From positions 1 to 37,725 of the forward strand of contig CACZCZ010000024.1 of the NCBI GenBank assembly GCA_902779845.1: 37,725 nt of DNA, read 5' to 3'. The position numbers and the translations under genes are program-made. Below, piece after piece: positions 6,685-37,450 of the stretch (position 1 is the first letter of the stretch; each line of letters opens with the position of its first letter). Origin of the DNA: an uncultured Bacteroidales bacterium. Lineage in GTDB: Bacteria > Bacteroidota > Bacteroidia > Bacteroidales > Bacteroidaceae. The notes below the pieces were generated by a model, which worked only from the letters and a program-made list of their open reading frames with translations, did no database searches and was not told where the DNA came from.

Positions 6685-6727
6685 GAGGACTCTCCCCCCG
6701 CCCTCCCTATAAGGGAGGGGCAATTAC
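6685..6727 (+). repeat. Family A element A1 (after the di-heme gene)
   Basis: It reads GGACTCTCCCCCCGCC, then CTCCC-TATAA-GGGAGG, then GGCAATTAC. It begins directly after the TAA of the di-heme gene and is the inverted partner of A2 (6817-6897), with the start codon of the second porin between them. Confidence 0.9.
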
Positions 6728-6744
6728 TTATAAAAAACATTCTC

Positions 6745-8067
6745 ATGAGAAAAAATATTAAGCTTTTATTCATCATTTGTTTTGCTATTCCATCAGCTAC
6801 CCTTTTAGCACAGGAAACCGCTCCCTCCCTTATAGGGTGCCAGAAAGACGGAACTATTAAGTGTTCCGGCTTGAATGGTTCGGGGGGTGAGTCTTCCCAT
6901 ATCGACATGGAAAACGGTGTGCTGGGCATTGCTGACGACCGCGGCTTCACGCTGCAGTCGAAGAACGGCAAGTTCGTGTTCAAGCCCTATCTGATGCTGC
7001 AGACACGCGGACAGTTCAACTACTACGATGATGAAGGGCTGGACAAAGCCTACAACCAGGACAATGTGGCTAACTCGGGTTTTGCCTTGCCCTATGCTAT
7101 TCTGGGTTTCACGGGAAAGACCTTCGGTTGTCTGGACTACAACCTGAGCATCAATGCGGCCGCCACGGGGGCCAACATCCTGCAGCAGGCGTGGCTGGAC
7201 TACGCCATCACCCCCGCAGCCCGCTTCCGTGTGGGTAAGTTCAAGACGCCCTTCACCCACGCCTATCTGACCACGCTGGGCGAGACGCTGTTCCCCATTG
7301 TTCCTACTTCACTCTCCACGTCCACCATCATGCCGCATACGTTGAATGCTGTGACGCCGCAGATTGCCACCGGCTTTGACGTCGGCGTACAGTTCCACGG
7401 CGTGGCCAAGCTGAATAAGAAAAAGGACAGCTGGATGATGGGCTACGAGGTGGGACTGTGGAACGGCAGCGGCTCTGTCGTGAACGGTGCCACGAAGACC
7501 ATCTCCGATGACTGGCACATCCCTTCGCTGCTCTATGCCGGCCGCCTGACCTTTATGCCATGGGGGAAGATGCCGCAGACGCAGGGTAACGCCCGAATGC
7601 TGAAGGGGCGCCACATGCAGTTCGGCATCTCCGGCGGACTGAATGTGGAGAGCGAGAGCGAAAGCACCAATGATGCCCGTCTGGGCGCTGAGTTCGCCAT
7701 GCTCTACAACCGCTGGTATGTCGGCGCTGAGGCCTATTGGATGCACGTGAGCTTCACCAAACGGCAGAAAATCAGCGATAAGTTCAACTACTGGGGTGCC
7801 TATGCGCAGGTGGGCTACTTTGTCAGCCGGACCGTGCAGTTGGGTGTGCGCTATGACTTCATGGACCGCAACGGCACATCGAAGGATGGTTTCCTGAATA
7901 TGCCGGCCGTGGTCTGCAACTACTACGTGCCGAAGGTACACCTGAAATTCTCGGCGATGTACCAGTTCACAGGCCGCTGGGGTCATGACACTCAACTCGA
8001 CCGCGATAACGATGACTTGGGCATCAGCACACACTATGCCTCGCTGCAGGCTCAGTTCAGTTTCTAA
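6745..8067 (+). CDS. Outer-membrane porin, OprO/OprP-like (second porin)
   Basis: 440 residues. The signal peptide ends ATLLAQ (about 23). Residues 25-51 (TAPSLIG...GGESS) are the in-frame translation of a family A element with an extra insert. The mature barrel has a classic Porin_O_P pattern: RGFTLQSKNGKFVFKPYLML, FRVGKFKTPFTHAYLTTLGE, and a final ...ASLQAQFSF strand ending in Phe as expected for BAM recognition. It is only distantly similar to the porin at 2509 by eye. The start ATG at 6745 lies between two inverted A elements. The substrate is unknown; it follows the di-heme gene in the same run. Confidence 0.85.
   Translation: MRKNIKLLFIICFAIPSATLLAQETAPSLIGCQKDGTIKCSGLNGSGGESSHIDMENGVLGIADDRGFTLQSKNGKFVFKPYLMLQTRGQFNYYDDEGLDKAYNQDNVANSGFALPYAILGFTGKTFGCLDYNLSINAAATGANILQQAWLDYAITPAARFRVGKFKTPFTHAYLTTLGETLFPIVPTSLSTSTIMPHTLNAVTPQIATGFDVGVQFHGVAKLNKKKDSWMMGYEVGLWNGSGSVVNGATKTISDDWHIPSLLYAGRLTFMPWGKMPQTQGNARMLKGRHMQFGISGGLNVESESESTNDARLGAEFAMLYNRWYVGAEAYWMHVSFTKRQKISDKFNYWGAYAQVGYFVSRTVQLGVRYDFMDRNGTSKDGFLNMPAVVCNYYVPKVHLKFSAMYQFTGRWGHDTQLDRDNDDLGISTHYASLQAQFSF
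6817..6897 (+). repeat. Family A element A2, in frame in the second porin
   Basis: The start ACCGCTCCCTCCCTTATAGG and the end GGGGGGTGAGTC match the family. Between them a 43-44 bp insert replaces the usual few bases. The insert has its own GGAAC...GTTCC hairpin and encodes CQKDGTIKCSGLN. The reading frame stays open throughout. Confidence 0.85.
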
Positions 8068-8080
8068 AATCGCACTTGAC

Positions 8081-8854
8081 ATGACACATCGTACATCGTA
8101 CATCCCACATCGTACATCATTATTTGCTTTCGTGTCACTTCTTATGCTGCTGCTTGCCGCCTGTGACTCGGGTGACATTGAGGAGCAGACACTGGCCACC
8201 ACCGATAACGGACGCACGGTGAAGCTGACCGCTGTCCTCTCAGGCATCGACTCCTGGGATAGGAAATATTCTGTGTCGCTGGCTGGCTTTACGGCGGGCG
8301 ACAACTACGCTCAGGTGGTGCGCGCCCTTCCCAATACCACGGCCGACGGCACAGCGGTGGAGCTGGTGCTCTCCAATATCGGTGACAACATCAATACGGT
8401 GGAGTTGGCCATTACCAATCGCTTGCGCGAGCGTATCATCACCCTCGCCAGTGTGAACATGGAGGATTTCGCAGAGCAGAAAGACACGATTCGCATGGAT
8501 CTCGGAGTGATGGACGTGAGCCGGATGGGCGCACTGCAGTTCGGCTTGTTTGACCGAGCTTGCATACAGTGTCATGGCGGGAATGGAGGTGCCGGAGCAG
8601 CCAAACTGAATCTGACAGCAGGACACTCGTTTGCCAATCTGGTGGATGTGCCCAGTACCCGCAAGGAGGGTGCTGTGCGCGTGGTCAGCGGAAATAGCCA
8701 AGCATCCCTTCTGCACCAACTCGTCTCCGAAGGTGGAGAAAACCTGTTGCATGTGAACCATACGGAAATTCTCAGCAACCAGTTCAGAGAAAACCTGAAT
8801 GAAGTCAGACAACTGATTGATGACTGGATCGCAGATTTGAAGGGGGATGATTGA
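8081..8854 (+). CDS. c-type heme lipoprotein with a single CxxCH
   Basis: 257 residues from the ATG at 8081 (an upstream in-frame ATG at 7985 lies inside the porin gene and is rejected). The lipoprotein signal ends LLAAC (Cys28). A beta-rich region up to about 155 is followed by one heme site, CIQCH (161-165), then HGGNGGAG and a C-terminal cytochrome-like part with several His residues (LLHVNHTEI). I do not recognise a named family. The position after the di-heme protein and the second porin suggests an electron-transfer partner in the same envelope module. The first residues (MTHRTSYIPHRTS) are the translation of a tandem ACATCGT repeat. Confidence 0.75.
   Translation: MTHRTSYIPHRTSLFAFVSLLMLLLAACDSGDIEEQTLATTDNGRTVKLTAVLSGIDSWDRKYSVSLAGFTAGDNYAQVVRALPNTTADGTAVELVLSNIGDNINTVELAITNRLRERIITLASVNMEDFAEQKDTIRMDLGVMDVSRMGALQFGLFDRACIQCHGGNGGAGAAKLNLTAGHSFANLVDVPSTRKEGAVRVVSGNSQASLLHQLVSEGGENLLHVNHTEILSNQFRENLNEVRQLIDDWIADLKGDD
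8084..8120 (+). repeat. Tandem ACATCGT-type repeat at a start codon
   Basis: ACACATCGTACATCGTACAT, then CCCACATCGTACATC, begins within the start of the CxxCH lipoprotein gene and encodes the n-region of its signal peptide. Confidence 0.8.
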
Positions 8855-8868
8855 GAGATTGAAAGATT

Positions 8869-8902
8869 CTTCAAGCTTGAAGCGTCGCAAGGCGCCGAGC
8901 GG
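8869..8902 (+). repeat. Family B element, copy 5
   Basis: CTTCAAGCTTGAAGCGTCGC then AAGGCGCCGAGCGG. The left part is a perfect 14-bp palindrome (CTTCAAGCTTGAAG). It lies between the CxxCH lipoprotein and the Rid-like gene. Confidence 0.7.
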
Positions 8903-8915
8903 AAAAATTGAAAAG

Positions 8916-10058: not shown

Positions 10059-10077
10059 CGTCCCGACAGATGAATTT

Positions 10078-10095
10078 GTGCGCAGATGTGCGCAC
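10078..10095. promoter_or_regulatory. Inverted repeat upstream of the cytochrome c assembly gene
   Basis: GTGCGCA-GATG-TGCGCAC, a perfect 7-bp inverted repeat 18 bases before the TAnnTTTG box. It could be an operator; no regulator is identified. Confidence 0.4.
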
Positions 10096-10112
10096 GTGTC
10101 AGCGAAAATGCT

Positions 10113-10120
10113 TACCTTTG
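10113..10120 (+). promoter_or_regulatory. -7 box directly before the cytochrome c assembly start codon
   Basis: TACCTTTG ends 4 bases before ATG 10125, so transcription would begin at or next to the start codon (leaderless). No good TTG is seen at the expected -33 position, which lowers confidence. Confidence 0.45.
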
Positions 10121-10124
10121 CACC

Positions 10125-11282: not shown

Positions 11283-11285
11283 AAA

Positions 11286-12836: not shown

Positions 12837-12868
12837 AAAAAACTTGGTTTTTGCAATGTTTCTGCCTG

Positions 12869-12900
12869 CAAAGTTATGCGTTTCAAACTATCGCTCCAAA
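12869..12900 (-). promoter_or_regulatory. Promoter of the GH30 gene
   Basis: On the minus strand TTTG (12900-12897), 20 bases, then TAACTTTG (12876-12869), a near-ideal Bacteroidota promoter 33 bases before the start codon. Confidence 0.8.
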
Positions 12901-12941
12901 TAATTACAGCTAAAATGTTCAGAAAAGACTAAAAAGGGATG

Positions 12942-14384
12942 CTATTCATTCACCCCAGTGGCTTGACGATAGGCAAAACGGGCGTTCTGGAGTGCGACAA
13001 AAGCATCAGTCTTTTGGTCCTGTGCTTGTTGCAGCAACAGCTGTGCTTGCAGCAGGTCGCTCATGGTGGAAGTGCCGGCGCGGTAGGTGTTACGCTGTAT
13101 GCGCAGATTCTCAGTGGCTTGTTCCACGCTCTTCTGAGCCAAGGCAAGCTGGCTCTGAGCCTCTGCGACATCATTGGATGTACTCTGCACACGAATTTGC
13201 AACTGCTGTGCATTGTCGATGAGCTGCTCACGCGCCGTCTGTTCTTCGAAGCGCTTGCGACGGATGGCATGGGCACCTCCCCACCAATCGGTGATAGGCA
13301 CATTAAGGGCTGCGAAGACCATACCGAAATGGCGGTCGTTTTCCAACAAGTTGTGGTAGTTGTAGCCTGCGCCCACGGCCAGCGTGGGCAGGTTCTTGGC
13401 CACCTCCATTTTGCGCTGCAATTTCGCCGCCTCTACGCTCTTCTCCAGGAGCTGGTATTCGGGTAAATATGAGAGGGGGGCCTCTATGGTCTCACCCCCA
13501 GCCCCTCTCCGAAGGGCGAGGGGAGCGAGTTCTTGCGATATGTCGTTTGACATGTCGGGAATCATAATCTCTGGGGTGACACTGAGGCCGCAGACCTGCG
13601 CAAGCAGCATCCTGATAAGAGCTTGACCATTGCTGAGCTTCAGACGCTGGCTGGAGATGTCATTCTGGCGCAGCTGCACCTGCAGGAGGTCGTTGCCGAG
13701 GGCTACGCCGGCCTTAACCGCCGTCTCCACATCATGCTGAATGCTGCCCAGCATCTTATCAACGCTGTCGAGTGTCCGCAGTTTCTGCTGCATAGAAACA
13801 AGCTGCCAATAGTAGTGCTCCACCTGTGCCTCAACATCTTTCTCAGAGAGTTGAAGCTGAAGATGGCTGACATCTTCGCCGAGACGTGCCAGTTTGTTAC
13901 CAAGGATGATTTGGCCACCGGCGAAGACAGGCTGTACAGCATTCACGCCGGCGATGGTACCTTTTTTCATCATGGCCATTGTCATGGGACTACCCAACCC
14001 TGCCAGCACTTCAGGAGGCAGGATTTGTGCCATCATAGGTGCCAACTCGCCCAGCGCCGCCTTCATTTCAGGCGTCAGCATCTCCTGCGGATCGATGGTC
14101 ATCTCGGCCATCTCCTTGTTGGCACGGAAGGTCATTCCCGTACCGCTGATGCTGGGGAAATATTTCGTAAAGGCTTCCTTGCGCTGCTCCTTGGCTGCCG
14201 CAACCTGCAGGCGTCCTTTACGCATGGCGATATTGTTCTGAAGGGCAGAATCCTTCAATTGCTCCAATGTAAAGGACTCTCCCCCCGTCCTCCCTATAAG
14301 GGAGGGAGCGGTTACCTGCGCCATTGAGAAGCAGGTAGAGATGATTACGATGGATATGCTGACTAACAAACGCTTAAGTTTCAT
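12942..14384 (-). CDS. TolC-family outer-membrane efflux channel
   Basis: 480 residues; signal peptide ends FSMAQ (23). The mature protein would normally continue into FTLEQLKDSALQNNI, but 13 residues (25-37, TAPSLIGRTGGES) encoded by a family A element are inserted. Two OEP repeats with long helices follow (NIAMRKGRLQVAAAKEQRKE; QSTSNDVAEAQSQLALAQKS; YRAGTSTMSDLLQAQLLLQQ). A second family A copy adds ELAPLALRRGAGGET at about 285-299, between the two repeats. The channel would form the outer-membrane end of the tripartite pump encoded upstream in the same operon. The inserted peptides lie at positions likely to tolerate them: the N-terminus and the inter-repeat linker. Confidence 0.9.
   Translation of the reverse strand: MKLKRLLVSISIVIISTCFSMAQVTAPSLIGRTGGESFTLEQLKDSALQNNIAMRKGRLQVAAAKEQRKEAFTKYFPSISGTGMTFRANKEMAEMTIDPQEMLTPEMKAALGELAPMMAQILPPEVLAGLGSPMTMAMMKKGTIAGVNAVQPVFAGGQIILGNKLARLGEDVSHLQLQLSEKDVEAQVEHYYWQLVSMQQKLRTLDSVDKMLGSIQHDVETAVKAGVALGNDLLQVQLRQNDISSQRLKLSNGQALIRMLLAQVCGLSVTPEIMIPDMSNDISQELAPLALRRGAGGETIEAPLSYLPEYQLLEKSVEAAKLQRKMEVAKNLPTLAVGAGYNYHNLLENDRHFGMVFAALNVPITDWWGGAHAIRRKRFEEQTAREQLIDNAQQLQIRVQSTSNDVAEAQSQLALAQKSVEQATENLRIQRNTYRAGTSTMSDLLQAQLLLQQAQDQKTDAFVALQNARFAYRQATGVNE
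13488..13532 (-). repeat. Family A element A5, in frame in the TolC gene
   Basis: On the minus strand GAACTCGCTCCCCTCGCCCT, then TCGGAGAGGGGCTGGGGGTG, then AGACC. It encodes ELAPLALRRGAGGET. It matches in inverted orientation the inner part of A4 (14431-14469). Confidence 0.85.
14274..14312 (-). repeat. Family A element A3, in frame after the TolC signal peptide
   Basis: Exactly 39 bp = 13 codons (TAPSLIGRTGGES). Its 3' part, GGGAGGACGGGGGGAGAGTC, can pair at 19 of 20 positions with the start of A4, enclosing the TolC start codon. Confidence 0.92.
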
Positions 14385-14417
14385 AGTATAATGTATTCAA
14401 ATTCTCAAAACTATTTG

Positions 14418-14492
14418 CTCCCTCCCATAAGTTCCCCTCGCCCTTTGGAGAGGAGTTAGGGGTGAGGCCCGGGAGGGCGGGGGGAGAGTCCT
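14418..14492 (-). repeat. Family A element A4, nested pair between pump and TolC genes
   Basis: An outer copy (GCTCCCTCCCATAA ... GGGAGGGCGGGGGGAGAGTC on the plus strand) contains an inner copy of the A5 type (14431-14469, TTCCCCTCGCCCTTTGGAGA then GGAGTTAGGGGTGAGGCC). It begins at the stop codon of the RND gene. Confidence 0.88.
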
Positions 14493-17400
14493 CTATTTCT
14501 TTACACTTAGTTTCCAATACAATACGGGCAGCACGGTGACCACGAGCACGAGGGTGCCGATACCGCCTGCGAAGATGGTGACGCCCACGGGCATCCAGAA
14601 TGAGGAGCCCGCGATGATCATGGGAATCACGCCCACGGCCGTGGTGGCTGTCGTGAGGAAGATGGGCACCATGCGTCGGCGACCGGCGTCGTAGGCAGCT
14701 TCCTCGATGGCGTAGTTATAGCGCTGGCGATAGGCGGTGTGCTCCTCGGGCGTGGGATGCTCCGGTGCCGGATGTTCGGCGTGGAAGCGCTTCATCAGGT
14801 TGTCGGCATGCTCGAAGATGAGAATCTCGTTGCGCATGATGATGCCCATGAGTGTGATGACGCCCATCACGGAGGTCAGGCCCAGCGTGCGGTTCATGAT
14901 GCCCAGTCCCACGAGAGCGCCAGGGATCATCAGCGCCAGGGCACCCATGCAGAGGAAGGTGATGCCGAAGCGCTTGAAGTTGAACAGCAGGAAGAAGAAG
15001 ATGATGACGAGGGCGATGAGCACGCCGTTGAAGATCTGCGGCATGGCCTCGGCATTGACTTCCAGCTCGCCGCCCACCTCTGTGCGCACGCCCTGGGGCA
15101 ACTCTATCTCGTTGTTCATGATGTCAGCGAGGCGACGTTCGATGGGTTCGGCATAGACGCCTTTGACCATTTCTGCCGTGACGGTGATGCAGCGCTCTCC
15201 GCCTCGGTGTACGATGCGGCTCTCGCTCCACAGGGGTTTCACGGCTGCCACCTGTCGCAGGGCGATGGTGCTGTTGGCGCCTCCGAGTCCTCCGGCGAGC
15301 ATGGTCAGCGGTGTGGCCACCGACCAGTTCTCGACATCGGCGAAGGTGCCGTTGGTCTCATCCATGACCACGATGGGCACCTCGTAGTCGCCTTCCCACA
15401 GCTGTCCCACGCGCAGCGAGCCGGAGGCGGCGCTGAGTGAGAGTGCTGCCGAGGCGCGCGTGATGCCCATCTGTGCGGCCTTCACGGGGTCGAGTTCTAC
15501 GTTCACGATGGGCGAGGGCTGCAGGTAGTCGGTGTGCACCCATTCCAGCTCGGGCATCTCGCGCATGCGTTCCATCATGCGTTCGGCCACGGCGTGCAGC
15601 GAGTCGATGTCCTCGCCGTAGAAGCGGTACTCCAGTTCGGGGGTGTAAAGCATATCGAGACGCTTGAAGCGCACGTAAGCGTTGGGGAAGGCCTCTGCCA
15701 GCAGGGGCTGGTAGTGGGCCAGCAGTTCGAGGGTGGCCTCGTTGGAGGTGGTGCCCACGATGAACTGTGCATAGTTCTTGCCCGCCATCTGCGGGGCGTA
15801 GGTGTCCATGAAGCGTGGCGATGAGCAGCCGAGGAAGGTGGTGATGGCTGTGATGTGCTCGTCCTTCTCAAGGATGTGTCTCACGGAATCTGCCACCATG
15901 TTCGTCTCAGCAAGTCCCTTGCCCTCGGGCAGGAAGATTTCCACGGCAAACTGGTCGCGGTCGGCGAAGGGGAACTGGCGCATCTTCAGCGTGGGCACGA
16001 TGAGCAGCGAGGCGCCTATCACGGCCGCGCCGAGGGCGATGGTGGCCCAGGGATGGCGGAAGTTCCAGTTGAGGACGTGGGTGTAGAGCTCCTGCACGCG
16101 GTCTGTAAAGCGTTTTCCCTGCTTCTCGGTATCGGGGACACCGATAATCTTCACACACAGGAAGGGTATCACGCCCACGGCCAGCAGCAGCGACACCAGC
16201 AGGTTGATGCCCACGGTCCAGGGGAAGTCCAGCAGGGCATCCAGGAAGGCGCCTTTGAGGGTGTAGAGCAGGGGGAAGAAGATGATGGTGATGCACACCG
16301 TGGCCAGCAGCATCGGCATGAAGTACTGCTTGGCCGAGGTGATGGCGGCATCCTTGGGCTTCATGCCCTTGCCCACGTATTCCAGATAACCGTCGATGAT
16401 GACGATGGAGTTATCCACGATCATGCCGAGCACGATGATGAGTGCCGCCAGCGTCACGATGTTCAGCTCGATGCCGGCGAAGTACATGAAGGCCACCGAC
16501 ACGAAGGTGCTCAGCGGGATGGTGATGGCCGCCACGATGGCGGAGCGCAGGGGGAAGAGCAGCATCATCACGACGATGATGATGACCATCGACAGCAGCA
16601 GGTCGCGCAGGAAGTCATGGATGCTCAGTTCCACCACCTTGGGTTTGTCGGCGATGCGAGTGAGGGTGACGTCGTCGGGCAGCACGTCGGTGCGGAAGTC
16701 GTCGAGGACGCGGTTCACGAGTCGCCCGTAGTTCACGACATTGTTGCCGGGCACCATCTCCATGGAGAGCAGCACGCAGGGGTGTCCGTTGTGCTCGATG
16801 CGGCTGGCATGCGGGTCATATTCGCGCACGACGCGGGCCACGTCGCCCACGCGTACCGTCTTGCCGCTGGCGGCATCGCTGTAGATGATGAGCGAGGCTA
16901 TCTCCTGCTCGTCGTGGCCTGTTGGCGCGATGTGCAGGGGTATCTGCTGGTCGGCATCGTCGAGGCTGCCGCTGAGAGTCGTGAGGCCCTCGCCCTGCAG
17001 GGTGCTGAGGAGCATCTGCTGTCCGATGCCGTAGGCCTGCAGGCGTTGGCGGTCGATGTAGAGGCTAATCTGCTGGCGCTGTTCGCCGAAGAGCTTCACG
17101 TTGGTCACCGAGGGTATGCGCCGCAGGCGGTCGCCGAGCTGGTCGCTGTACTGCCTCAGCTCGCGGTAGCTGCGATCGCCGCTCTCGATGGCGATGAGCA
17201 GGGCTGAGGTGTTGCCGAAGTCATCGTTGGTCACGAGTGCCACGACGCCCTGCGGCAGCGACTGTTTGAACTGCTGCAACCCCAGCTTCAGCTTGCTCCA
17301 CACCTCGTCTTTGTTGCGGACGGAGCCGTTGAGTTCCACCATCGTGATGCAGAGTCCGTTCTGCGAGGTGGTGGTGGTTTTCTTGCGGTTCACCTCGTTG

Positions 17401-17684
17401 TAGGTGAAGAGATAGCGCTCCAGGGGGCGTGCCACCTGCAGCTCCACCTCCTCTGTGGAGGCTCCGGGATAGACGGCTATGACGACGCCTTGCCGCACGG
17501 TGACGCGTGGGAACTCATCCTTCGGCATGACATACATGCCATAGATGCCTATGAAAAACAGTATCCCTATGATGAGCAGCGAGATGCGGTAGTGCTCTAG
17601 CGGCCAGGCGTACCAGGACCCGCCCCTGGCCCCTCCCGTGAGGGAGGGGTGAGGCTGGCGCATAGATTCATTATTATTCGACAT
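14493..17684 (-). CDS. RND-family efflux pump, inner-membrane subunit
   Basis: 1063 residues, the usual length for an AcrB-type pump. After a family A peptide (about 10-23, QPHPSLTGGARGGS) comes the first membrane helix (ISLLIIGILFFIGIYGMYVM), the porter motif PGASTEEVELQVARPLE, six-helix bundles around 330-530 and 860-1050, and the fourth-helix segment GMIVDNSIVIIDG, where the proton-relay pair is Asp-Asn rather than the Asp-Asp of AcrB. The pump exports unidentified substrates using the proton gradient. It sits between the adaptor and the TolC genes in one operon. The start codon lies within a 24-bp ATTGCGAT repeat and between two inverted family A elements. Confidence 0.92.
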   Translation of the reverse strand: MSNNNESMRQPHPSLTGGARGGSWYAWPLEHYRISLLIIGILFFIGIYGMYVMPKDEFPRVTVRQGVVIAVYPGASTEEVELQVARPLERYLFTYNEVNRKKTTTTSQNGLCITMVELNGSVRNKDEVWSKLKLGLQQFKQSLPQGVVALVTNDDFGNTSALLIAIESGDRSYRELRQYSDQLGDRLRRIPSVTNVKLFGEQRQQISLYIDRQRLQAYGIGQQMLLSTLQGEGLTTLSGSLDDADQQIPLHIAPTGHDEQEIASLIIYSDAASGKTVRVGDVARVVREYDPHASRIEHNGHPCVLLSMEMVPGNNVVNYGRLVNRVLDDFRTDVLPDDVTLTRIADKPKVVELSIHDFLRDLLLSMVIIIVVMMLLFPLRSAIVAAITIPLSTFVSVAFMYFAGIELNIVTLAALIIVLGMIVDNSIVIIDGYLEYVGKGMKPKDAAITSAKQYFMPMLLATVCITIIFFPLLYTLKGAFLDALLDFPWTVGINLLVSLLLAVGVIPFLCVKIIGVPDTEKQGKRFTDRVQELYTHVLNWNFRHPWATIALGAAVIGASLLIVPTLKMRQFPFADRDQFAVEIFLPEGKGLAETNMVADSVRHILEKDEHITAITTFLGCSSPRFMDTYAPQMAGKNYAQFIVGTTSNEATLELLAHYQPLLAEAFPNAYVRFKRLDMLYTPELEYRFYGEDIDSLHAVAERMMERMREMPELEWVHTDYLQPSPIVNVELDPVKAAQMGITRASAALSLSAASGSLRVGQLWEGDYEVPIVVMDETNGTFADVENWSVATPLTMLAGGLGGANSTIALRQVAAVKPLWSESRIVHRGGERCITVTAEMVKGVYAEPIERRLADIMNNEIELPQGVRTEVGGELEVNAEAMPQIFNGVLIALVIIFFFLLFNFKRFGITFLCMGALALMIPGALVGLGIMNRTLGLTSVMGVITLMGIIMRNEILIFEHADNLMKRFHAEHPAPEHPTPEEHTAYRQRYNYAIEEAAYDAGRRRMVPIFLTTATTAVGVIPMIIAGSSFWMPVGVTIFAGGIGTLVLVVTVLPVLYWKLSVKK
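17616..17658 (-). repeat. Family A element A6, in frame at the RND N-terminus
   Basis: On the minus strand CCAGCCTCACCCCTCCCTCA, then CGGGAGGGGCCAGGGGCGGG, then TCC. It encodes QPHPSLTGGARGGS and is the inverted partner of A7 across the RND start codon. Confidence 0.88.
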
Positions 17685-17706
17685 TGCGATATTGCGATAT
17701 TACGAT
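17683..17706. repeat. Triple 8-bp repeat overlapping the RND start codon
   Basis: Plus-strand units ATTGCGAT, ATTGCGAT, ATTACGAT. The start codon (CAT on the plus strand at 17682-17684) overlaps the first unit. Confidence 0.8.
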
Positions 17707-17746
17707 TTGACGTGATTACGAGAAAAAGAATTGCCTACTACCCGCA

Positions 17747-17807
17747 GGACTCCCCTCCATTACGGGAGGGGCTGGGGGTGGGTCTCCATTACGGGAGGGG
17801 TTGGGTC
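17747..17807. repeat. Family A element A7, one and a half copies, supplying the adaptor's stop codon
   Basis: Plus strand: GGACTCCCCTCCATTACGGG then AGGGGCTGGGGGTGGGTC, followed by a second TCCATTACGGGAGGGGTTGG. The TAA stop of the adaptor gene (17789-17791) and its last residues QPLP are encoded by the second partial copy. Confidence 0.85.
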
Positions 17808-18844
17808 TTTGTGCCTTCACTCAGTTTCTGGTAGCCTTCCGTGACCACGCGCTGTCCGTCGCTCAGTCCGGAGAGAATCTCGATGCGGTTGCCCACGATG
17901 GTACCTGTGGTCACCGTCGTGCGATGAGCTGTATTGTCCTTGCTCACCGTCCACGCGAAGAAGGTGCCGTCGGCTCTCTGTTGCACCGCCGTGATAGGAA
18001 GCGTAAAGAAGGTTGTTGGCGAGGGCGACTGCTCCTTCCCTGAGAGGGAGGACGGGGAGAGTGTCTTTACCTTGGCCACCATACCCGGCAACAGTTCCCT
18101 ACCTTTATTATCTACGCGCACGCGCACGTCATATGTGTGTGTGAGAGCATCTGCCTGCACGCCTTTCTCAATCAGGCCGCCATGAAACTCACGTCCAATG
18201 GCTTCAACAAAGATGGTAGTAGGCGTTGTCGATGTGATGTCCTTCATCTCGCGCTCAGGCACAGCAATCTTCACCTTCACGCTGCTGATATCCAGGATGC
18301 TCACAACAGGCTGCGAGGGCAGCGCGGTCTCGCCGGCAGCCAGATAGCGTTTTCCGATGATGCCGCTCACGGGAGCTTCCAGGCGGCTGTCGGCCACGTT
18401 GCGGCGTGCGATGGCGAGCTCGGAGCGAGCCTGATCCACCTTGCTCTGCACCTCCACCCATTGCGCCTCGGTCATCGAGCCTTCGTCGTGGAGCAGTTTA
18501 TAGCGCTGCAGGGCATCCTCGGCCTGCCGGTTCTGTGCCTCGGCGGCAGCGAGCATGTTGCGAGCCTGTGTGTCATCGAGTTCAGCGATGAGCTGTCCGC
18601 GGCCTACGGCCTGTCCTTCGCTCACAGCCACATGTTTGAGCGTTCCCATCGTAGTGTAGCTGACAACGGTCGCCTGGTTCTCCTCAACAACGCCGACATA
18701 GGTCTTGCCATCACTGGCCACGGCCTGCGCACTCACCTTTTCAACCACGACACGAATCGGAGCTTTCTCGCGTTCTGAATTCTTCGGGCTACAAGCCACC
18801 AACGTCAGAAGGAGCGCTCCATAAACAATTCTTTTTGCTTTCAT
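17789..18844 (-). CDS. RND efflux periplasmic adaptor lipoprotein (HlyD/AcrA family)
   Basis: 351 residues. A lipoprotein signal ends TLVAC (Cys18). The barrel-sandwich/lipoyl half (GTLKHVAVSEGQAVGRGQLI), a helical hairpin with AAEAQNRQAEDALQRYKLL, and the returning half (LEAPVSGIIGKRYLAAGETA) are in the usual order, with the membrane-proximal domain at the C-terminus. It bridges the inner-membrane pump and the outer-membrane channel. An in-frame family A copy (TLSPSSLSGKEQSPSP, about 260-275) lies in the third domain, and the stop codon comes from another copy, A7. It is the first gene of the operon, with a TAnnTTTG box 38 bases upstream. Confidence 0.9.
   Translation of the reverse strand: MKAKRIVYGALLLTLVACSPKNSEREKAPIRVVVEKVSAQAVASDGKTYVGVVEENQATVVSYTTMGTLKHVAVSEGQAVGRGQLIAELDDTQARNMLAAAEAQNRQAEDALQRYKLLHDEGSMTEAQWVEVQSKVDQARSELAIARRNVADSRLEAPVSGIIGKRYLAAGETALPSQPVVSILDISSVKVKIAVPEREMKDITSTTPTTIFVEAIGREFHGGLIEKGVQADALTHTYDVRVRVDNKGRELLPGMVAKVKTLSPSSLSGKEQSPSPTTFFTLPITAVQQRADGTFFAWTVSKDNTAHRTTVTTGTIVGNRIEILSGLSDGQRVVTEGYQKLSEGTKTQPLP
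18027..18065 (+). repeat. Family A element A8, in frame in the adaptor gene
   Basis: Plus strand GACTGCTCCTTCCCTGAGAG then GGAGGACGGGGAGAGTGTC. It matches A3 reversed. Relative to the gene it is in the opposite orientation to A2, A3, A6 and A10, and encodes TLSPSSLSGKEQS. Confidence 0.75.
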
Positions 18845-22230: not shown

Positions 22231-23241
22231 ATGGAAAAGAAAAAAGTAATAGCCATCGTCTGCGGTGGCGACAGTTCCGAGCATGAGGTGAGCCTGCGCA
22301 GTGCACAGGGCATCTACAGCTTCATGGACAAGGAGAAATTCGAAGTATTCATCGTAGTGCTGAACGGCCTTAAATGGGAGGCAGAACTTGCCGACGGCAA
22401 ACGTGTGCCCGTGAGCCGCGAAGACTTCTCCTTCAAGGTTGGTCGTCGCACCGTGAAGCCCGACTTCGCCTACATCACCATTCACGGAACGCCCGGCGAG
22501 GACGGCATCCTGCAGGGCTATTTCGACCTCATCCGTCTCCCCTACTCCACCAGCGGCGTGCTCATAGAGTCCATGACCTTCAACAAGTTCACACTGAATC
22601 AATACCTGAAGGGTTTTGGCGTCAGCGTCAGCGAGAGTCTGGTGGTACGTCGCGGCAGTGAAGACCTGGTGACGGACGATGAGATCATCAACCACATCGG
22701 CCTGCCCTGCTTCGTGAAGCCCAATGCCGGCGGCAGCAGCTTCGGCGTCACCAAGGTGAAGACACTCGAAGAGTTGCGCCCTGCCATCTACCGGGCAATG
22801 CACGAGAGCGACGAGGTCATGGTGGAGGCTTTCATGCCCGGGACGGAGCTTACCTGCGGTTGTTACAAAGTGTCCGGCAAGGAAGTGGTATTCCCCATCA
22901 CGGAAGTCGTCACACACAACGAATTCTTCGACTTTGATGCCAAGTACAAGGGCGAAGTCGATGAGATCACTCCCGCGCGCATCAGCAAGGAGCTGAGCGA
23001 CCGCGTGCAAGCCCTCACCAGTGCCATCTACGACATCCTTGGATGCTCCGGCATCATCCGCATCGACTACATCGTCACGAAAGTGACCGACGAGGACGGC
23101 AAGGAGCACGAGCGCATCAACATGCTGGAAATCAACACCACGCCCGGTATGACCGCCACCAGCTTCATTCCTCAGCAAGTCCGCGCAGCCGGACTTGATA
23201 TCAAGGATGTGCTGACTGATATTATCGAAGATAAGCTGTAA
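22231..23241 (+). CDS. ddl: D-alanine--D-alanine ligase
   Basis: 336 residues. The ATP-grasp ligase has CGGDSSEHEVSLRSAQGIYS at the N-terminus, HGTPGEDGILQGYFDLIRLP, the glycine-rich loop PCFVKPNAGGSSFGVTKVKT, and ELTCGCYKVSGKEVVFPITE and MLEINTTPGMTATSFIPQQV around the metal-binding and D-Ala sites. It joins two D-alanines for peptidoglycan precursors in the cytoplasm. It starts 4 bases after the rluD-like gene in the same transcript. A family A element starts right after the stop codon. Confidence 0.97.
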   Translation: MEKKKVIAIVCGGDSSEHEVSLRSAQGIYSFMDKEKFEVFIVVLNGLKWEAELADGKRVPVSREDFSFKVGRRTVKPDFAYITIHGTPGEDGILQGYFDLIRLPYSTSGVLIESMTFNKFTLNQYLKGFGVSVSESLVVRRGSEDLVTDDEIINHIGLPCFVKPNAGGSSFGVTKVKTLEELRPAIYRAMHESDEVMVEAFMPGTELTCGCYKVSGKEVVFPITEVVTHNEFFDFDAKYKGEVDEITPARISKELSDRVQALTSAIYDILGCSGIIRIDYIVTKVTDEDGKEHERINMLEINTTPGMTATSFIPQQVRAAGLDIKDVLTDIIEDKL

Positions 23242-23292
23242 GACTCACCCCCGCCCCCTCTCTTTCAAAGAGGGGGAGGGAGAGGGCAATTA
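23242..23292 (+). repeat. Family A element A9, directly after the ddl stop codon
   Basis: GACTCACCCCCGCCCCCTCT, then CTTTCAAAGAGGGGGAGGGA, then GAGGGCAATTA. It is a near-perfect inverted partner of A10 (two 1-bp indels over about 40 bp). Confidence 0.92.
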
Positions 23293-23344
23293 GACGGGGA
23301 TGAGGAACGATAAAAAGCTTGCAACCGAAAAACTGATAACGATA

Positions 23345-24592
23345 ATGACAAACAACGAACCCTCTACGCGCCAGCTTTCCCCCTCTTTGAAAGAGAGGGG
23401 GGCAGGGGGTGAGTCTTTTGATACCATTCGCCCCTACAACGACGACGAAGTGCGGGATGCTATTGACAGCCTGCTACGCGACCGTCAGTTCTCGCATATC
23501 CTCAAGGGGATGGCGCCGTTCCTGCCGTTGGCCGTGAGCCGTGGCATCCTGCGCCTGGCCACAGTAGGCATTCACTCTACGTTGGGCTTCCAGGTGCGTT
23601 TCATGAAGCCGATAGTGAAGTACATCCTTTGGCGCTGTGCCAAGGGCTGTTCCTTTGACCACCCCGACATCACGGCAGGCCCCGAGCGCTATACCTTCAT
23701 CAGCAATCATCGCGACATCGTGCTCGACAGCGCCATCCTGGATGCAAAGCTCCACGACGACCATTTCCCAACGACCTGCGAGATAGCCATCGGTGACAAC
23801 CTGCTCATATACCCCTGGATTCGCACACTGGTGCGGCTGAACAAAGCCTTCATCGTGCAACGCTCGCTGCCGATGCGCGAGATGCTGAAAGCCTCGCAGA
23901 CCATGAGCCGCTACATGCACTATGCCATCACGGAGAAGCACGAGAACATCTGGATTGCACAGCGCGAAGGGCGCGCCAAGGACTCCAGCGACCAGACACA
24001 GGTGTCGCTGGTGAAGATGCTGGCCATCACAGGCGAAGGCAGCACCACAAGTGCCATCGAGAGTCTCAAAGCCCTGAATATCGTGCCGTTGTCCATCAGT
24101 TACGAGTATGACCCCTGTGACTACCTGAAGGCGCAGGAGTTCCAGCTGAAGCGCGACAACCCTGCATGGAAGAAGTCCAAGCAGGATGACCTCACCAACA
24201 TGAAGACTGGCATCTTCGGGCAGAAGGGACATATACACTATCAGACGGGACGCCCCGTGAACACGTGGATCGACCAGTTGTCCGAATTGCCAGAGAAGGA
24301 GTTCTACCAGGCACTGGCACAGCGCCTTGACCACGAGATACACCGCTCCTACCGCCTCTACCCCGGCAACTATGTGGCCGTTGACCTGCAGAGCGGCGAA
24401 GAACGCTATACCAACCGCTATACGCCCGCAGACAAAGCCGCCTTCGAGAGCTATCTCGAACAACGCATCGCCATGGCCGCTCAGGCCCTGCAGGTCGCCG
24501 GTACCACTCCTGATGCTGCCTTCTTGCGCGAATGCATCCTGACAATGTATGCAAATCCGGTGAAGAACCAGTTGGAAAGTGGACAGAAGTAG
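23345..24592 (+). CDS. Lysophospholipid acyltransferase-family protein (PlsC-like)
   Basis: 415 residues from ATG 23345. A family A peptide (residues 11-24, LSPSLKERGAGGES) lies between the first ten residues and the conserved body starting FDTIRPYNDDEV. The acyltransferase core shows SNHRDIVLD, IAIGDNLLIYPWI, KAFIVQRS and IAQREGRAKDSSD, in the order of PlsC blocks I to III. The usual HX4D appears here as His followed by five residues and Asp. It is predicted to acylate a lipid, possibly a lysophospholipid or an amino-lipid, at the inner membrane face. An alternative upstream start at 23300 would add 15 residues. Confidence 0.75.
   Translation: MTNNEPSTRQLSPSLKERGAGGESFDTIRPYNDDEVRDAIDSLLRDRQFSHILKGMAPFLPLAVSRGILRLATVGIHSTLGFQVRFMKPIVKYILWRCAKGCSFDHPDITAGPERYTFISNHRDIVLDSAILDAKLHDDHFPTTCEIAIGDNLLIYPWIRTLVRLNKAFIVQRSLPMREMLKASQTMSRYMHYAITEKHENIWIAQREGRAKDSSDQTQVSLVKMLAITGEGSTTSAIESLKALNIVPLSISYEYDPCDYLKAQEFQLKRDNPAWKKSKQDDLTNMKTGIFGQKGHIHYQTGRPVNTWIDQLSELPEKEFYQALAQRLDHEIHRSYRLYPGNYVAVDLQSGEERYTNRYTPADKAAFESYLEQRIAMAAQALQVAGTTPDAAFLRECILTMYANPVKNQLESGQK
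23375..23415 (+). repeat. Family A element A10, in frame in the acyltransferase
   Basis: CTTTCCCCCTCTTTGAAAGA, then GAGGGGGGCAGGGGGTGAGT, then C. It encodes LSPSLKERGAGGES and is the inverted partner of A9 with the start codon between them. Confidence 0.92.
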
Positions 24593-24628: not shown

Positions 24629-25390
24629 ATGATAACAGACCTCATCAGATACATTGTGCGCCACTTCGCGAAGGTGACCACTCTTCCCCTGCCGCTCGGC
24701 GCTTTGCGACGCTTGACACTTCAAGAAAGGGGAGTGAGGAGGGGGTCCTATTTTTCGCTTTTCACACTTTATTTTTCACTTTTCACTTTCACAGCCTGCT
24801 CCGACAGCAAGAATGCAGAGGAAGATGCCTTCCCTGCGCTCGTCACGGAGATGGGACTGCTGCACATAGGTTCCACCCCCACCGACCTTACCCTCTACAC
24901 CGACAGCGGCAAGCGCTATCAAGCCATTGCCGAGATAGAAGGGTTGAAGCCCGACACCTGGTTGCGCTGTCTGGCAGGCTTTGTGATTCAGGACGCCGGC
25001 AAGGTGGAGCTGCTCACGCTTCGGGGCGTGGGCGTGCTATCCAACTACACGGACAAGGCCAACCTGAAGCGCGACCCAGTGGGTGTCGTCAGTGCCTGGA
25101 CGGGCGGCACCTTTGTGAACCTGCACCTGCTGAAGAAGAACAAGGGTGCAGACCACGACTGGGGCTTCATGCTGGACAACAGCTACGCCAACACCGCCGG
25201 CGGCACCACCTACGAGGTGTCGCTCTACCACGACCAGCGCAACGATCCTGCGGCTTACAGTTCCGACATCTATTTCAGCCTGTCACAGGACTCTCTGTCC
25301 AAGACACGGACGACAGCCGACAGCATCCTTCTCACCGTTCACACCTTCGACGCTACGCCCCACCAATGGCGTTTCGCCCTAACCCCATAA
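24629..25390 (+). CDS. NigD-like lipoprotein with a repeat-derived signal peptide
   Basis: 253 residues from ATG 24629. The mature part after Cys57 (TFTAC-SDS) has an OB-like segment (LTLYTDSGKRYQAIAEIEGL) and a C-terminal beta sandwich (GTFVNLHLLKKN..., TTYEVSLYHDQRNDPAAYSS, DIYFSLSQ), which resembles the NigD-like lipoproteins of Bacteroidota; the function of these is unknown. Residues 17-56 are encoded by repeats: a family A copy with a family B copy inside it, then a TTTTTCACTTTTCAC repeat that supplies the hydrophobic core. A GTG at 24734 would give a more ordinary signal peptide (MRRGSYFSLFTLYFSLFTFT) and may be the true start. Confidence 0.55.
   Translation: MITDLIRYIVRHFAKVTTLPLPLGALRRLTLQERGVRRGSYFSLFTLYFSLFTFTACSDSKNAEEDAFPALVTEMGLLHIGSTPTDLTLYTDSGKRYQAIAEIEGLKPDTWLRCLAGFVIQDAGKVELLTLRGVGVLSNYTDKANLKRDPVGVVSAWTGGTFVNLHLLKKNKGADHDWGFMLDNSYANTAGGTTYEVSLYHDQRNDPAAYSSDIYFSLSQDSLSKTRTTADSILLTVHTFDATPHQWRFALTP
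24679..24749 (-). repeat. Family A element A11, interrupted by a family B element
   Basis: ACCACTCTTCCCCT and AAAGGGGAGTGAGGAGGGGG TCC flank the family B copy at 24691-24725. The nested unit encodes LPLPLG and ERGVRRGS around GALRRLTLQ. Confidence 0.75.
24691..24725 (-). repeat. Family B element, copy 6 (inside A11)
   Basis: On the minus strand CTTGAAGTGTCAAGCGTCGC then AAAGCGCCGAGCGGC, again preceded by CTTTC. Confidence 0.82.
24751..24793 (+). repeat. TTTTTCACTTTTCAC repeat encoding the signal-peptide core
   Basis: Related units translate to YFSLFTLYFSLFTFT, the hydrophobic part of the NigD-like lipoprotein signal. It is the reverse complement of the repeat at 24592-24628. Confidence 0.8.
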
Positions 25391-26543: not shown

Positions 26544-26556
26544 AAACCATACCGCC

Positions 26557-27303: not shown

Positions 27304-27306
27304 AAA

Positions 27307-28524: not shown

Positions 28525-28537
28525 CACACCCGAAGAA

Positions 28538-29467: not shown

Positions 29468-29551
29468 GATGATGCGCTGACGAAGTCCGTGAATCGCCCG
29501 ACTCCCCATACGGCATCTGCCATCACCTCTTAGCGAAACCAGCGTTTCTCC

Positions 29552-30346: not shown

Positions 30347-30370
30347 AGATGACAGAGGAATGATTATGGA

Positions 30371-31720: not shown

Positions 31721-31737
31721 CGAGGTGCGAAAGAGTT

Positions 31738-33507: not shown

Positions 33508-33520
33508 AGAATTGCAACGT

Positions 33521-34477: not shown

Positions 34478-34482
34478 GACAT

Positions 34483-35643: not shown

Positions 35644-36986
35644 ACAGCGAACAGCGAATATAAAAGAGCAATTAATAACAACGCCGACAGATAGGCGAGA
35701 AGGCGTATGACGCGCAGATGTACAGCCTTCTTCTTGTTCAGCCGCTGAATCTGACCTTCTTTTTGAAGAATCATTTCCGTAGCCTGTTTGAGCTGTGAGC
35801 TCAAATCACTTGACTTTTTGCGTTCAGCCAGCATGAGCCGCTGCTCTATTTGGTAATAGATATGAAACGAGAAATCGGAACGATACTTGAAGAAGCTGTC
35901 CGCAATGGCACATTTCTCCGCTTCCAGCTGAAAGTGATGTTTTGCATATTGACACGTCATCGCAATGAGCTCATCCGGAGTCTTGCAGATGTTGTAGAAA
36001 TGGTGCTGAAGACCTAATGCAGCTTGCACCTTTGCACCGTCATCGGCATCGTTCATGTCCAAATACGGATCATCCTTATCTGGAATCCAATAGAACGTAG
36101 GCTTATGTTGAAACATGAAATCAAAGGAAATGCTTGAGCAGTCCGTAATACAAGCCTTGGCGTGACACACCCAATATTTTATCTCCTCCTGTCTGATAAA
36201 CTTCACATTCTCGCCTAAGTTAAAGTCAGCAACCCTGTTCTGGATGTGATGGTGGAGGGCTACAATGAGTTTGATACCATTATCACGGAAGCGCTGAATA
36301 TTCTCTTTGGAAAAGAACTTGATCAGATTCTGCCAATAAAGCGACCGGTGGATCTTGTCTATTCCTTTTTCCAACGAACTCCTCCACGTAAACATGACAA
36401 AGACATAATTGTCGTCCAACTCAGAAGACAGATCCCTGCACTGGTCAAACCGAGGCAGACCAGCGACGAAACACAAATCCTTGCTCCACGGTTGTTTGGG
36501 CATCAGGCTTTCGATGAGCTCTTTTTCTCTCTTTGAGGACACGTTCATGTCGTTGAAGGGAGGAAAATAGCGCCAAGTCAGTTCTGAAATATTGATGGCT
36601 GCTATGCCATGCTGCAGGAAGACCAATCGGCAATCATCCAGTTGATAGAGCCAGTCGTGGATTCCCCGGTTCATTGCGGCATTCTCTTGGACAAAGGCAC
36701 GGCATCTGGCTAAGACTTCATCATGTTCCAACAACTCCTCATCTTCCCCATTGCCATTAAGGACAATCACATCCTTCATTGCGTCTTCTTTTACAAGCTG
36801 CTGATACAAGAAATGTTCTTTCCAAATAACATATCTGGACGGAATGTCGTTTCGTTGAAGCCACCGAAAGAACGTCCATGAATCGACAGGATCGTTGGTA
36901 CGCGAATTCAGTTGCCCTGTTACGACGTATAAATCATGAGGACATTTCTCGCGTAACCTTTCTATATATTCATATCGATTCATCAT
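35640..36986 (-). CDS. CDP-glycerol glycerophosphotransferase-like enzyme, tail-anchored
   Basis: 448 residues. The GT-B-like body has FLQHGIAAIN (about 124-132), FVMFTWRSSL, LIVALHHHIQ and the family signature ACITDCSSISFDFMFQHKPT (about 278-296), as in TagB/TagF-type poly(glycerophosphate) transferases. A helix with coiled-coil character (about 375-418) and a terminal membrane segment (about 424-446) follow. It could add glycerol-phosphate or ribitol-phosphate to a growing glycan. It is the promoter-proximal gene of the minus-strand glycan operon. Either Met of MMN may start translation. Confidence 0.78.
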   Translation of the reverse strand: MMNRYEYIERLREKCPHDLYVVTGQLNSRTNDPVDSWTFFRWLQRNDIPSRYVIWKEHFLYQQLVKEDAMKDVIVLNGNGEDEELLEHDEVLARCRAFVQENAAMNRGIHDWLYQLDDCRLVFLQHGIAAINISELTWRYFPPFNDMNVSSKREKELIESLMPKQPWSKDLCFVAGLPRFDQCRDLSSELDDNYVFVMFTWRSSLEKGIDKIHRSLYWQNLIKFFSKENIQRFRDNGIKLIVALHHHIQNRVADFNLGENVKFIRQEEIKYWVCHAKACITDCSSISFDFMFQHKPTFYWIPDKDDPYLDMNDADDGAKVQAALGLQHHFYNICKTPDELIAMTCQYAKHHFQLEAEKCAIADSFFKYRSDFSFHIYYQIEQRLMLAERKKSSDLSSQLKQATEMILQKEGQIQRLNKKKAVHLRVIRLLAYLSALLLIALLYSLFAV

Positions 36987-37216
36987 ACTGGAGACCTTGA
37001 AGAGGTGGAGTCCTTGTTATAGAAACTTGATTACCATGAACGGGGTCAGTCTTGAAACATTGCCAGCGTGTCCTTCGCAATCATCGATGCATCATTGATG
37101 GGGATGACGCAGGCTTGGACTCTGGGAATACCGTGCAAAGTAAATCATTTTTTTCTAAATGGGCGCAAAATAAATGTTATTTAATCTTAAAGTGTAATTC
37201 GTGCCGTGATAAATTA
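36987..37216. other. Leader region of the minus-strand glycan operon
   Basis: About 230 bp without a gene. Two partial matches to a minus-strand -7 box are present: TTACTTTG near 37136-37143 and TTATTTTGCGCCC near 37155-37168; the latter has the GCGCCC that follows two other promoters in this window. Neither has an obvious TTG at the right distance. No JUMPstart-like element is recognised. Confidence 0.4.
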
Positions 37217-37256
37217 ATTCGGGGACGAAGCATACGAAAGTGCTCCGTCCCCGAAT
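37217..37256 (-). terminator. Strong terminator downstream of the secreted-protein gene
   Basis: ATTCGGGGACGAAGCA pairs with TGCTCCGTCCCCGAAT (one mismatch) around TACGAAAG. It lies 20 bases after the orphan C-terminal fragment and may stop transcription of the minus-strand gene entering from the right. Confidence 0.78.
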
Positions 37257-37276
37257 GATATTGGGTTTAAGAATGT

Positions 37277-37414
37277 TTACTTAATCACGACCCTCTTGCC
37301 GTTCTTTACATAGACACCAGCCTTGGTTGGCTTGCCATTCAATGGGCGACCGCTCAGGTCGTACCAGTTGGCATTCTTTGCGAAGTCTGCCTCGTTGCAC
37401 CCCTGCAACGGAGC
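37277..37414 (-). pseudogene. Orphan C-terminal sorting-tail fragment
   Basis: The frame reads NEADFAKNANWYDLSGRPLN then GKPTKAGVYVKNGKRVVIK and a stop, preceded by an in-frame TGA at 37415-37417 and with no start codon. It is a second copy of the tail type that ends the gene at 37453 (INGVELAEKPTAPGIYIHGG then KKVVVK). It is in a different frame from that gene. I take it to be the remnant of another secreted-protein gene or of a tail duplication. Confidence 0.65.
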
Positions 37415-37450
37415 TCACCTCCCTCTCGGGGAGGACGGGAGGGGCTCGCT
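37394..37450. repeat. Family A element A12 with an adjoining GTTGCA hairpin
   Basis: GAGCTCACCTCCCTCTCGGG then GAGGACGGGAGGGGCTCGCT (37411-37450), next to the perfect hairpin GTTGCA-CCCC-TGCAAC (37394-37409). It begins two bases after the stop codon of the minus-strand gene and separates it from the orphan tail. Confidence 0.75.

Follow-up and report, generated by a model that had tools for sequence, protein, structure and literature searches.

How does a short palindromic repeat come to lie in frame within many unrelated proteins, and what is the unit that is gained or lost? This question is raised by 37,725 nucleotides of an uncultured Bacteroidales bacterium of the Bacteroidaceae (contig CACZCZ010000024.1, positions 1 to 37,725 of the forward strand, assembly GCA_902779845.1; hereafter the window), in which inspection of the sequence had revealed a family of GC-rich palindromes of 40-50 bp, here called family A. 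The original prediction took each copy for a lone in-frame insertion and compared it to the Rickettsia palindromic elements (RPEs). The reading that we favor, with a probability of roughly 0.55, is that family A is a genus-restricted repeat of the REP (repetitive extragenic palindrome) type, whose unit is a bracket of two inverted arms around 38-195 bp of resident gene, and that these brackets have spread as alleles.

A Dispersed Family of Palindromic Arms

The assembly comprises 2.92 Mb in 47 contigs and is 85.9% complete; 821 kb of it were sampled for arms. The 19-bp core of the repeat (CCCTCCC-loop-GGGAGGG, up to three mismatches) is matched at 83 forward and 90 reverse positions of this genome, where a palindrome may count on both strands, and none in a control of the same genome read backwards. 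An arm model, obtained by iterated nhmmer on a sample of 421 kb, the window included, has no hit at E ≤ 1 in the reversed sample, and chance composition is thus excluded as the source of the repeats. At E ≤ 0.1 the model finds 232 arms in 1.19 Mb of five genomes, 135 of them in the 821 kb of the present genome and the others in 373 kb of G022, G030, G018 and G011; these stretches were mostly picked around known matches in this genome and its relatives, and the arm densities are not genome averages. Several subfamilies share one layout, in which an outer end (GACTC, GCCTC or AGACCC) is followed by a C-run, a hairpin and an inner end, each arm being an imperfect hairpin of about 40-50 bp. When single arms are folded as RNA, four of the five tested are scarcely more stable than shuffled controls (z -0.1 to -1.2), and the remaining one reaches -2.4. 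Arms within predicted genes, which were called by a simple hexamer scorer and not by a trained gene finder, are read through without a stop codon, and alignment confirms that the protein continues on either side of the arms in the enzymes named below. The predicted dispersed family, lying in frame in many proteins, is therefore real, and ten of the twelve copies first listed in the window match the arm model (that at 14418 only in weak pieces, E 0.6-0.9); those at 24679 and 37411 give no hit at E ≤ 1.

Searches of the genus and of the order used a single strict pattern for the outer end of the main subfamily, so that counts per genome are lower bounds. The pattern occurs in 57 of 139 genomes of the genus (the present one included), with up to 81 matches per genome, and in two of 295 genomes across the order, namely the present one and one with a single match. 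Conservation in distant genera, which like chance composition had been named as a possible undoing of the prediction, was accordingly not encountered. Where the relatives found through CTP synthase carry names, they are mostly ruminant-gut assemblies of Prevotella, Prevotellaceae and Bacteroidales. Carriage of family A by plasmids and phages was rejected, as neither a 43-bp arm searched against plasmids nor a 215-bp bracket searched against phages has a match at E 1e-5 with the low-complexity filter on.

Arms Occur as Inverted Pairs

Neighboring arms less than 260 bp apart number 84 in the 1.19 Mb. Seventy-one of these pairs have the orientation '+-', in which the GACTC ends point outward, none is '-+', six are '++' and seven '--', so that a lone in-frame insertion cannot be upheld as the main unit; what commonly occurs is a gene segment with an inverted pair around it, and presence or absence of the pair also changes the enclosed DNA. 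The '+-' pairs, called brackets here, account for 142 of the 232 arms, with gaps of 38 to 195 bp between the two arms. Sixteen of them are contained in a single predicted gene, another 35 hold a predicted gene start or have one at most 20 bp away, and 20 are placed otherwise; the bracket at the start of the TolC-like gene in the window stands outside the 71 because its partner arm has decayed. In 567 kb of named assemblies (80 loci selected only for CTP synthase, which may overlap the other genome set), three of three close neighbors are '+-', all within CTP synthase genes. Same-orientation copies in tandem were seen at L214, L215 and L220, one run resembling a local amplification.

Mates within a bracket resemble each other more than random pairing would produce. 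Over the 71 pairs, the mean similarity score of mates is 29.6, compared with 25.1 (standard deviation 0.65) after permutation within genomes (0/5000), and among the 30 pairs of the main subfamily, 11 of the 18 in which both loops are readable have identical loops, compared with 3.8 after permutation across genomes (0/5000). The inner ends, with consensus drawn by eye, resemble AGTGRTTACCTTTCAAGAATAG in the 5′ arm, read with the gene, and AGTAGAATGTTTTTGAGCAG in the 3′ arm, read from outside; loose regular expressions assign this polarity to 15 of the 53 readable brackets with a clear gene strand and the reverse to three, the other 35 being mixed, of the same class or unclassed.

The Enclosed Segment Belongs to the Resident Gene

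Both arms lie in frame within the genes for GltB, CTP synthase, DapF, UvrA and citramalate synthase. When these proteins are compared with solved structures by phmmer, the alignments of CTP synthase, DapF and GltB continue through the enclosed segment, that of citramalate synthase extends on both sides and skips the interior, and that of a GH2 protein is loose. Arm-free species have the enclosed segment at the same place, as seen in comparisons of 110 loci for CTP synthase, 24 for UvrA (from a search that covered 61 of the 139 genomes of the genus), 29 for citramalate synthase and 30 for GltB. The spacer of intragenic brackets in conserved enzymes is thus homologous to the sequence of arm-free species and is not part of a mobile unit. 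Among the interiors of 25 brackets, likeness is confined to one neighboring pair with similar gene starts and to matches of at most 19 nt, several of them at the inner ends, and a REPIN with a conserved interior was rejected on this ground. A recent donor among the compared loci was rejected as well, the best non-self match of the interior being 0.83 in CTP synthase and 0.59 in UvrA; the citramalate synthase interior finds its best matches in species that have the same bracket. By inspection, the empty sites compared show no target duplication; the interior changes there too, and the edges are uncertain.

Both Arms or Neither

The two arms tend to be present or absent together at three sites, as judged by Fisher tests that ignore phylogeny. 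At site 1 of GltB (30 loci), both, one or none of the arms are found in 11, 1 and 18 cases (2e-7), and in citramalate synthase (29 loci) in 10, 2 and 17 (6e-6). Site 2 of GltB gives 11, 2 and 17 when the peptides are read by eye (1.4e-6 on these counts) and 7, 5 and 18 by the automatic rule, which also scores long loops as arms. In GltB, the subfamily that occupies one given pair of loops varies among species, and as read from the peptides it is the same in both loops of the pair.

Presence of the bracket also goes together with the sequence that it encloses. The citramalate synthase genes of G125, which has the bracket, and of G132, which has none, differ at 0-5 positions per full 50-bp window of the flanks and at 14 of 44 in the interior window (4 of 5 and 4 of 17 in the gapped edge windows), the protein still being homologous. 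Since the two are sisters inside a bracketed clade in the flank tree, G132 has probably lost its bracket. Another bracket, C20:33582, is found in the present genome and in G082 and not in G132 and G125, whose leader and signal peptide differ between conserved flanks.

The identity of interiors was compared with that of their flanks at the three sites, with arm subfamilies assigned by eye from the peptides and with L325 omitted at GltB site 1, L315 and L325 at GltB site 2, and L277, L282 and L284 in citramalate synthase. For GltB site 1, GltB site 2 and citramalate synthase, in this order, interior minus flank identity is -0.013, +0.010 and -0.001 for pairs of the same subfamily; -0.122, -0.072 and -0.105 for different subfamilies; -0.087, -0.170 and -0.121 for bracketed versus bracket-free loci; and +0.005, -0.092 and -0.083 for two bracket-free loci. 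The interior tends to follow the arm subfamily, most cleanly at GltB site 1, the only matched contrast (flank identity 0.792 for the same and 0.793 for different subfamilies). Ongoing hypermutation of the interiors was rejected because same-subfamily interiors diverge like their own flanks.

Further repeat families, with the peptides PTSPKGEEP / LLPSGGGREG and SPEGAT / EAPSGAVGG, are also paired at the same loops (L300-L329 for GltB, L143 for CTP synthase), and bracketing may therefore extend beyond family A.

Interiors Are AT-Rich

The 16 intragenic interiors (311 codons) have a GC content at third codon positions (GC3) of 0.531, as compared with 0.726 (standard deviation 0.024, minimum 0.650) in 1000 random windows of the same genes, none of which is as low; amino-acid composition is unmatched in this control, and fourfold-degenerate sites shift alike (GC 0.56 versus 0.76). 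GC3 is below that of the flanks in 13 of the 16, and the change ends at the arms. Among orthologues, the GC3 shift in bracketed versus bracket-free loci is -0.230 (11 loci) versus -0.070 (18) at GltB site 1, -0.152 (11) versus -0.066 (17) at GltB site 2, -0.234 (9) versus +0.015 (17) in citramalate synthase and -0.153 (4) versus +0.038 (77) in CTP synthase, so that the bias mostly accompanies the bracket and is not simply pre-existing. Strand-specific deamination of the interior was rejected, as C and G at third positions both drop (0.415 to 0.296 and 0.323 to 0.235); the differences between the G125 and G132 interiors, which by reading include transversions and A-to-G changes, count against it as well.

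A Candidate Transposase

The genome encodes a protein of 434 amino acids that resembles the REP-associated tyrosine transposases (RAYTs) and scores 22.8 bits against Y1_Tnp as a protein (cut-off 23) and 24.1 bits in the genome search. RAYT-like genes occur in 24 of 25 genomes with at least ten arms and in 63 of 114 with fewer (Fisher 5.6e-5), a co-occurrence uncorrected for phylogeny. Flanking of the RAYT-like gene by arms was rejected as a feature of the family, an arm lying within 600 bp of the gene at 3 of 30 loci, a count for which no expectation was computed. Given protein scores below cut-off, a tie that consists of co-occurrence, and arms that do not flank the gene, the protein is no more than a candidate for the mobilizing enzyme. 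Its gene, L059:1261-2565 (G000:C7:43824-45125), contains the in-frame tandem repeats GGERDAAEVH and GGARGDE, which we take to lie between the HUH-type motif and the presumed tyrosine region of the protein. In the present genome and in G082, this gene stands at a distance of about 20 kb from that for citramalate synthase.

How Brackets May Arise and Spread

We suggest the following scenario. The arms of a bracket, usually of one subfamily, would be acquired together, or one would be copied from the other, as their shared subfamily implies. The most likely mobilizer would be a multicopy Y1 (HUH) transposase of the REP-associated type acting on single-stranded hairpins. The brackets that survive would be those that keep the frame in permissive places, such as presumed surface loops, positions just past a stop codon, or the junction of signal peptide and mature protein. 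Bracket and interior would then form one allele, and homologous recombination between species may add or remove the whole cassette. The arms would hinder mixing of bracketed and bracket-free alleles, with the consequence that the interior diverges from its bracket-free version and drifts toward AT while the flanks stay similar.

Several observations weigh against this scenario. Of the 232 arms, 90 have no detected partner, and seven of 21 singles in the first sample exceed the random 95% level for an inverted partner when the inner flank is considered; for the outer flank none does. Identity of loops within pairs is not significant in the present genome alone (5 of 9 versus 2.7, 332/5000). CTP synthase (both, one or none in 5, 18 and 87 loci, some of the 'one' loops apparently containing two arms) and site 1 of UvrA (2, 2 and 20) are not both-or-neither, and in one of the ten citramalate synthase loci scored as 'both', L282, the right loop is long and lacks the arm peptide. 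The species compared are not phylogenetically independent, and same-subfamily pairs at GltB site 2 and in citramalate synthase are the closer relatives. At GltB site 2, bracket-free pairs diverge as much as pairs of different subfamilies, and the divergence of bracket-free pairs there and at the citramalate synthase site shows both to be variable even without brackets. No bracket-free donor of an interior came to light among the loci compared. GC3 is not below the flanks in 3 of 16 intragenic interiors and is mixed in UvrA (0.36 in the present genome and 0.27 in L184; 0.69 in L181 and 0.67 in L183, where the arms are decayed; 0.44-0.89 in the others). As for the enzyme, the RAYT-like protein reaches 33.6 bits against REP_Tyr_transpos, for which the NCBIfam cut-off is 80, and RAYT-like genes are found in 37 of the 82 genomes that lack the strict pattern and missing in 7 of the 57 that have it; the scarcity of arms near it and the uncorrected co-occurrence belong here too.

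Among the alternatives, a possible though doubtful one is that arms insert singly at random and that an inverted partner of the same subfamily is favored later, since base pairing between the two, in RNA or DNA, neutralizes the first arm. Orientation, complementarity and AT-rich loops would all be accounted for, single arms are numerous, and the RNA of one bracket of the window (bracket 4, 23240-23420) folds arm to arm at -92.3 kcal/mol (z -9.7), leaving the start codon and most of the interior as the loop. Yet the loop letters match within pairs over all genomes (not significantly so in the present genome alone), several subfamilies are both-or-neither at three sites, and the very abundance of singles indicates that pairing is not required.

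An unlikely explanation takes the bracket for the scar of a segment replacement by a diverged homologous or analogous copy. A piece capped by hairpin adapters of the same subfamily would be inserted by a hairpin-specific HUH enzyme and would replace 40-190 bp of the resident gene. This agrees with the joint change of interior and arms between similar flanks, with the sharp edges of the AT-rich interiors, and with the signal peptide and leader at C20:33582, which look unrelated in bracketed and bracket-free species. However, a donor did not turn up in the sets examined, and ordinary recombination of old alleles gives the same linkage without a new process. If true, rumen Prevotella would have a means of exchanging signal peptides, loops of enzymes and the starts of genes.

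Somewhat less probable still is the view that these are ordinary REPINs (REP doublets), in which doublet and private spacer are inserted together; the copies that survive in frame would just lengthen the protein. Size, high copy number, inverted arms, the arm-to-arm fold and co-occurrence with RAYT-like genes all fit, and REP dimers within genes are already known. On the other hand, the arms in GltB, CTP synthase, DapF and citramalate synthase enclose a homologous piece of the enzyme itself, which arm-free species also possess, and the 25 interiors compared share next to no sequence. A REPIN unit is therefore largely refuted for the intragenic brackets and could hold for the intergenic ones. 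That the arms are recombination sites of an inverton, flipping the interior as a switch, is suggested by inverted repeats around gene starts in a Bacteroidota genome and is hardly credible, because the interior is always in coding orientation in the aligned enzyme orthologues, where a flip would break the gene, and no inverted interior was noticed in seven alignments.

Family A is a repeat associated with a particular stretch of resident gene rather than with a spacer of its own. This is so even in conserved enzymes, CTP synthase and glutamate synthase among them, and one pair of loops in a protein may be occupied by one repeat subfamily or another depending on the species. The peptides PSLIGRAGGES, PSPKGEGS and their like are thereby accounted for, and we would like to caution against calling them domains. 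Older questions are also opened to testing, namely if REP pairs travel together, by what route the two arms acquire their inverted order, if repeats form barriers to or boundaries of recombination, and how proteins gain new linkers.

Elements in the Window

The window holds four brackets, one with a decayed partner arm, each of which contains a gene start (porin, TolC, RND, acyltransferase). They join the palindromes at 6685/6817, 14274/14418, 17616/17747 and 23242/23375, and only those at 13488 and 18027 appear to be single (Table 1). Two of the four begin directly past the stop codon of the preceding gene (6684/6685 and 23241/23242). The left arm of bracket 1 folds as RNA at -16.5 kcal/mol (z -0.98), and about 44 bp separate the hairpin half of its right arm from the outer end. 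The decayed arm of bracket 2 has an inner inverted match that scores 20, above the random 95% level (13.5) and below the random maximum (26). Direct reading of 14418-14490 suggests that the hairpin loop of a first-subfamily arm here harbors a nested arm from a second subfamily (GCCTCACCCC type).

Table 1. Arms and interiors of family A in the window, with the open reading frames (ORFs) concerned.
Feature	Position	Strand	Context and support
Bracket 1, left arm	6685..6727	+	Right after stop of di-haem oxidoreductase ORF 5164-6684; nhmmer 6688-6726, E 4.8e-10
Bracket 1, interior	6728..6813	+	Porin 5′ leader, start codon 6745, signal peptide (by eye); ORF 6745-8067, Porin_O_P
Bracket 1, right arm	6814..6893	-	Hairpin half 6814-6837 (nhmmer E 5.7e-4); outer GGGGGGTGAGTC end at about 6882-6893, read directly
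Single arm in TolC-like protein	13491..13527	+	In frame, peptide LAPLALRRGAGGE; nhmmer E 0.006
Bracket 2, arm	14274..14316	+	In frame past signal peptide of minus-strand TolC-like gene (OEP domain); nhmmer 14275-14315, E 1.9e-11
Bracket 2, interior	14317..14417	-	TolC-like start codon 14384, signal peptide (by eye); ORF 12942-14384
Bracket 2, decayed partner arm	14418..14490	-	Weak nhmmer pieces 14434-14466 (E 0.89) and 14471-14490 (E 0.61)
Bracket 3, arm	17617..17648	+	In frame close to N-terminus of RND pump (ACR_tran); nhmmer E 0.0018
Bracket 3, interior	17649..17748	-	RND start codon 17684; ORF 14493-17684
Bracket 3, partner arm	17749..17784	-	Directly past HlyD-type adaptor gene; nhmmer E 7.2e-6
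Single arm in HlyD-type adaptor	18028..18065	-	In frame, C-terminal part; nhmmer E 3e-6
Bracket 4, left arm	23242..23285	+	Right after stop of D-Ala-D-Ala ligase ORF 22231-23241; nhmmer 23242-23274, E 1.4e-4
Bracket 4, interior	23286..23380	+	Acyltransferase start codon 23300; ORF 23300-24592
Bracket 4, right arm	23381..23415	-	In frame in acyltransferase, peptide PSLKERGAGGES; nhmmer E 4.4e-4

Two other repeats were seen in the window. An array of GATTCGG/GATTCAA heptamers covers about 170 bp (2317-2491), and a second dispersed repeat, TTCTTGAAGTGTCAAGCGTC, stands at 408-432, 615-639, 666-690, 1054-1078 and 8867-8891; a string like it, in reverse complement, lies within the hairpin-like sequence at 24679, which the arm model does not find.

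Comparison with Known Repeat Systems

No description of such repeats in Prevotella or Bacteroidales, and no match to the arm peptide strings, was found among the open-licence papers of PubMed Central (PMC).

The nearest relatives of family A are the REP dimers, in head-to-head (HH) or tail-to-tail (TT) arrangement, and the REPINs, both mobilized by RAYT (TnpA-REP) transposases, which share with it palindromes of 20-40 bp in high copy number, inverted doublets, some intragenic copies and RAYT-like genes (PMC3733652; PMC3116915). REP dimers are inverted units with spacers of 20-100 bp, variable as a rule of thumb in TT dimers, and have intragenic copies, including some in uvrA genes, in other phyla (PMC3733652); REPINs are described in PMC3116915. 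Family A differs in that it has no strict GTAG tag and its arms do not flank the RAYT-like gene. Among the 161 arms, of 232, whose inner foot is readable by a regular expression that requires the first G and thus leaves CGTC and the outer foot outside, the foot is GTAG in 20, GTAG or GTGG in 36 and G[TC][AG][AG] in 122. For these two reasons we do not file family A as a REPIN, although it works like one in part. It differs further in that the spacer is a segment of the resident gene, the interior is AT-rich, and interior and arms act together as cassette alleles; that the spacer may be the host gene's own segment is not stated in the excerpts consulted (PMC3733652; PMC3116915; PMC6006769; PMC10969869).

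Subclasses 2.4 and 2.6 of TnpA-REP, HUH transposases of Bacteroidetes with double-foot or atypical hairpins, resemble family A in their hosts, in the type of the candidate enzyme and in having in-frame REP insertions, within tnpA-REP genes themselves (PMC6006769). Their hairpins flank or enter their own transposase gene, unlike the arms of family A. Miniature inverted-repeat transposable elements (MITEs) are likewise short non-coding repeats with inverted ends (PMC10969869), whereas in family A target duplication is not seen by eye at the compared sites, with their uncertain edges, and the interior is not conserved between copies; no parent transposon was found, and no systematic search for one was made.

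The parallel with Rickettsia holds insofar as RPEs are palindromic repeats inserted in frame in many unrelated protein genes (PMC10969869), and two of them, RPE-4 and RPE-6, have been counted among the CGTC REPs (PMC3733652). REP dimers are nevertheless the closer counterpart: RPEs are whole in-frame insertions of about 150 bp (PMC10969869), whereas in family A two arms bracket native sequence.

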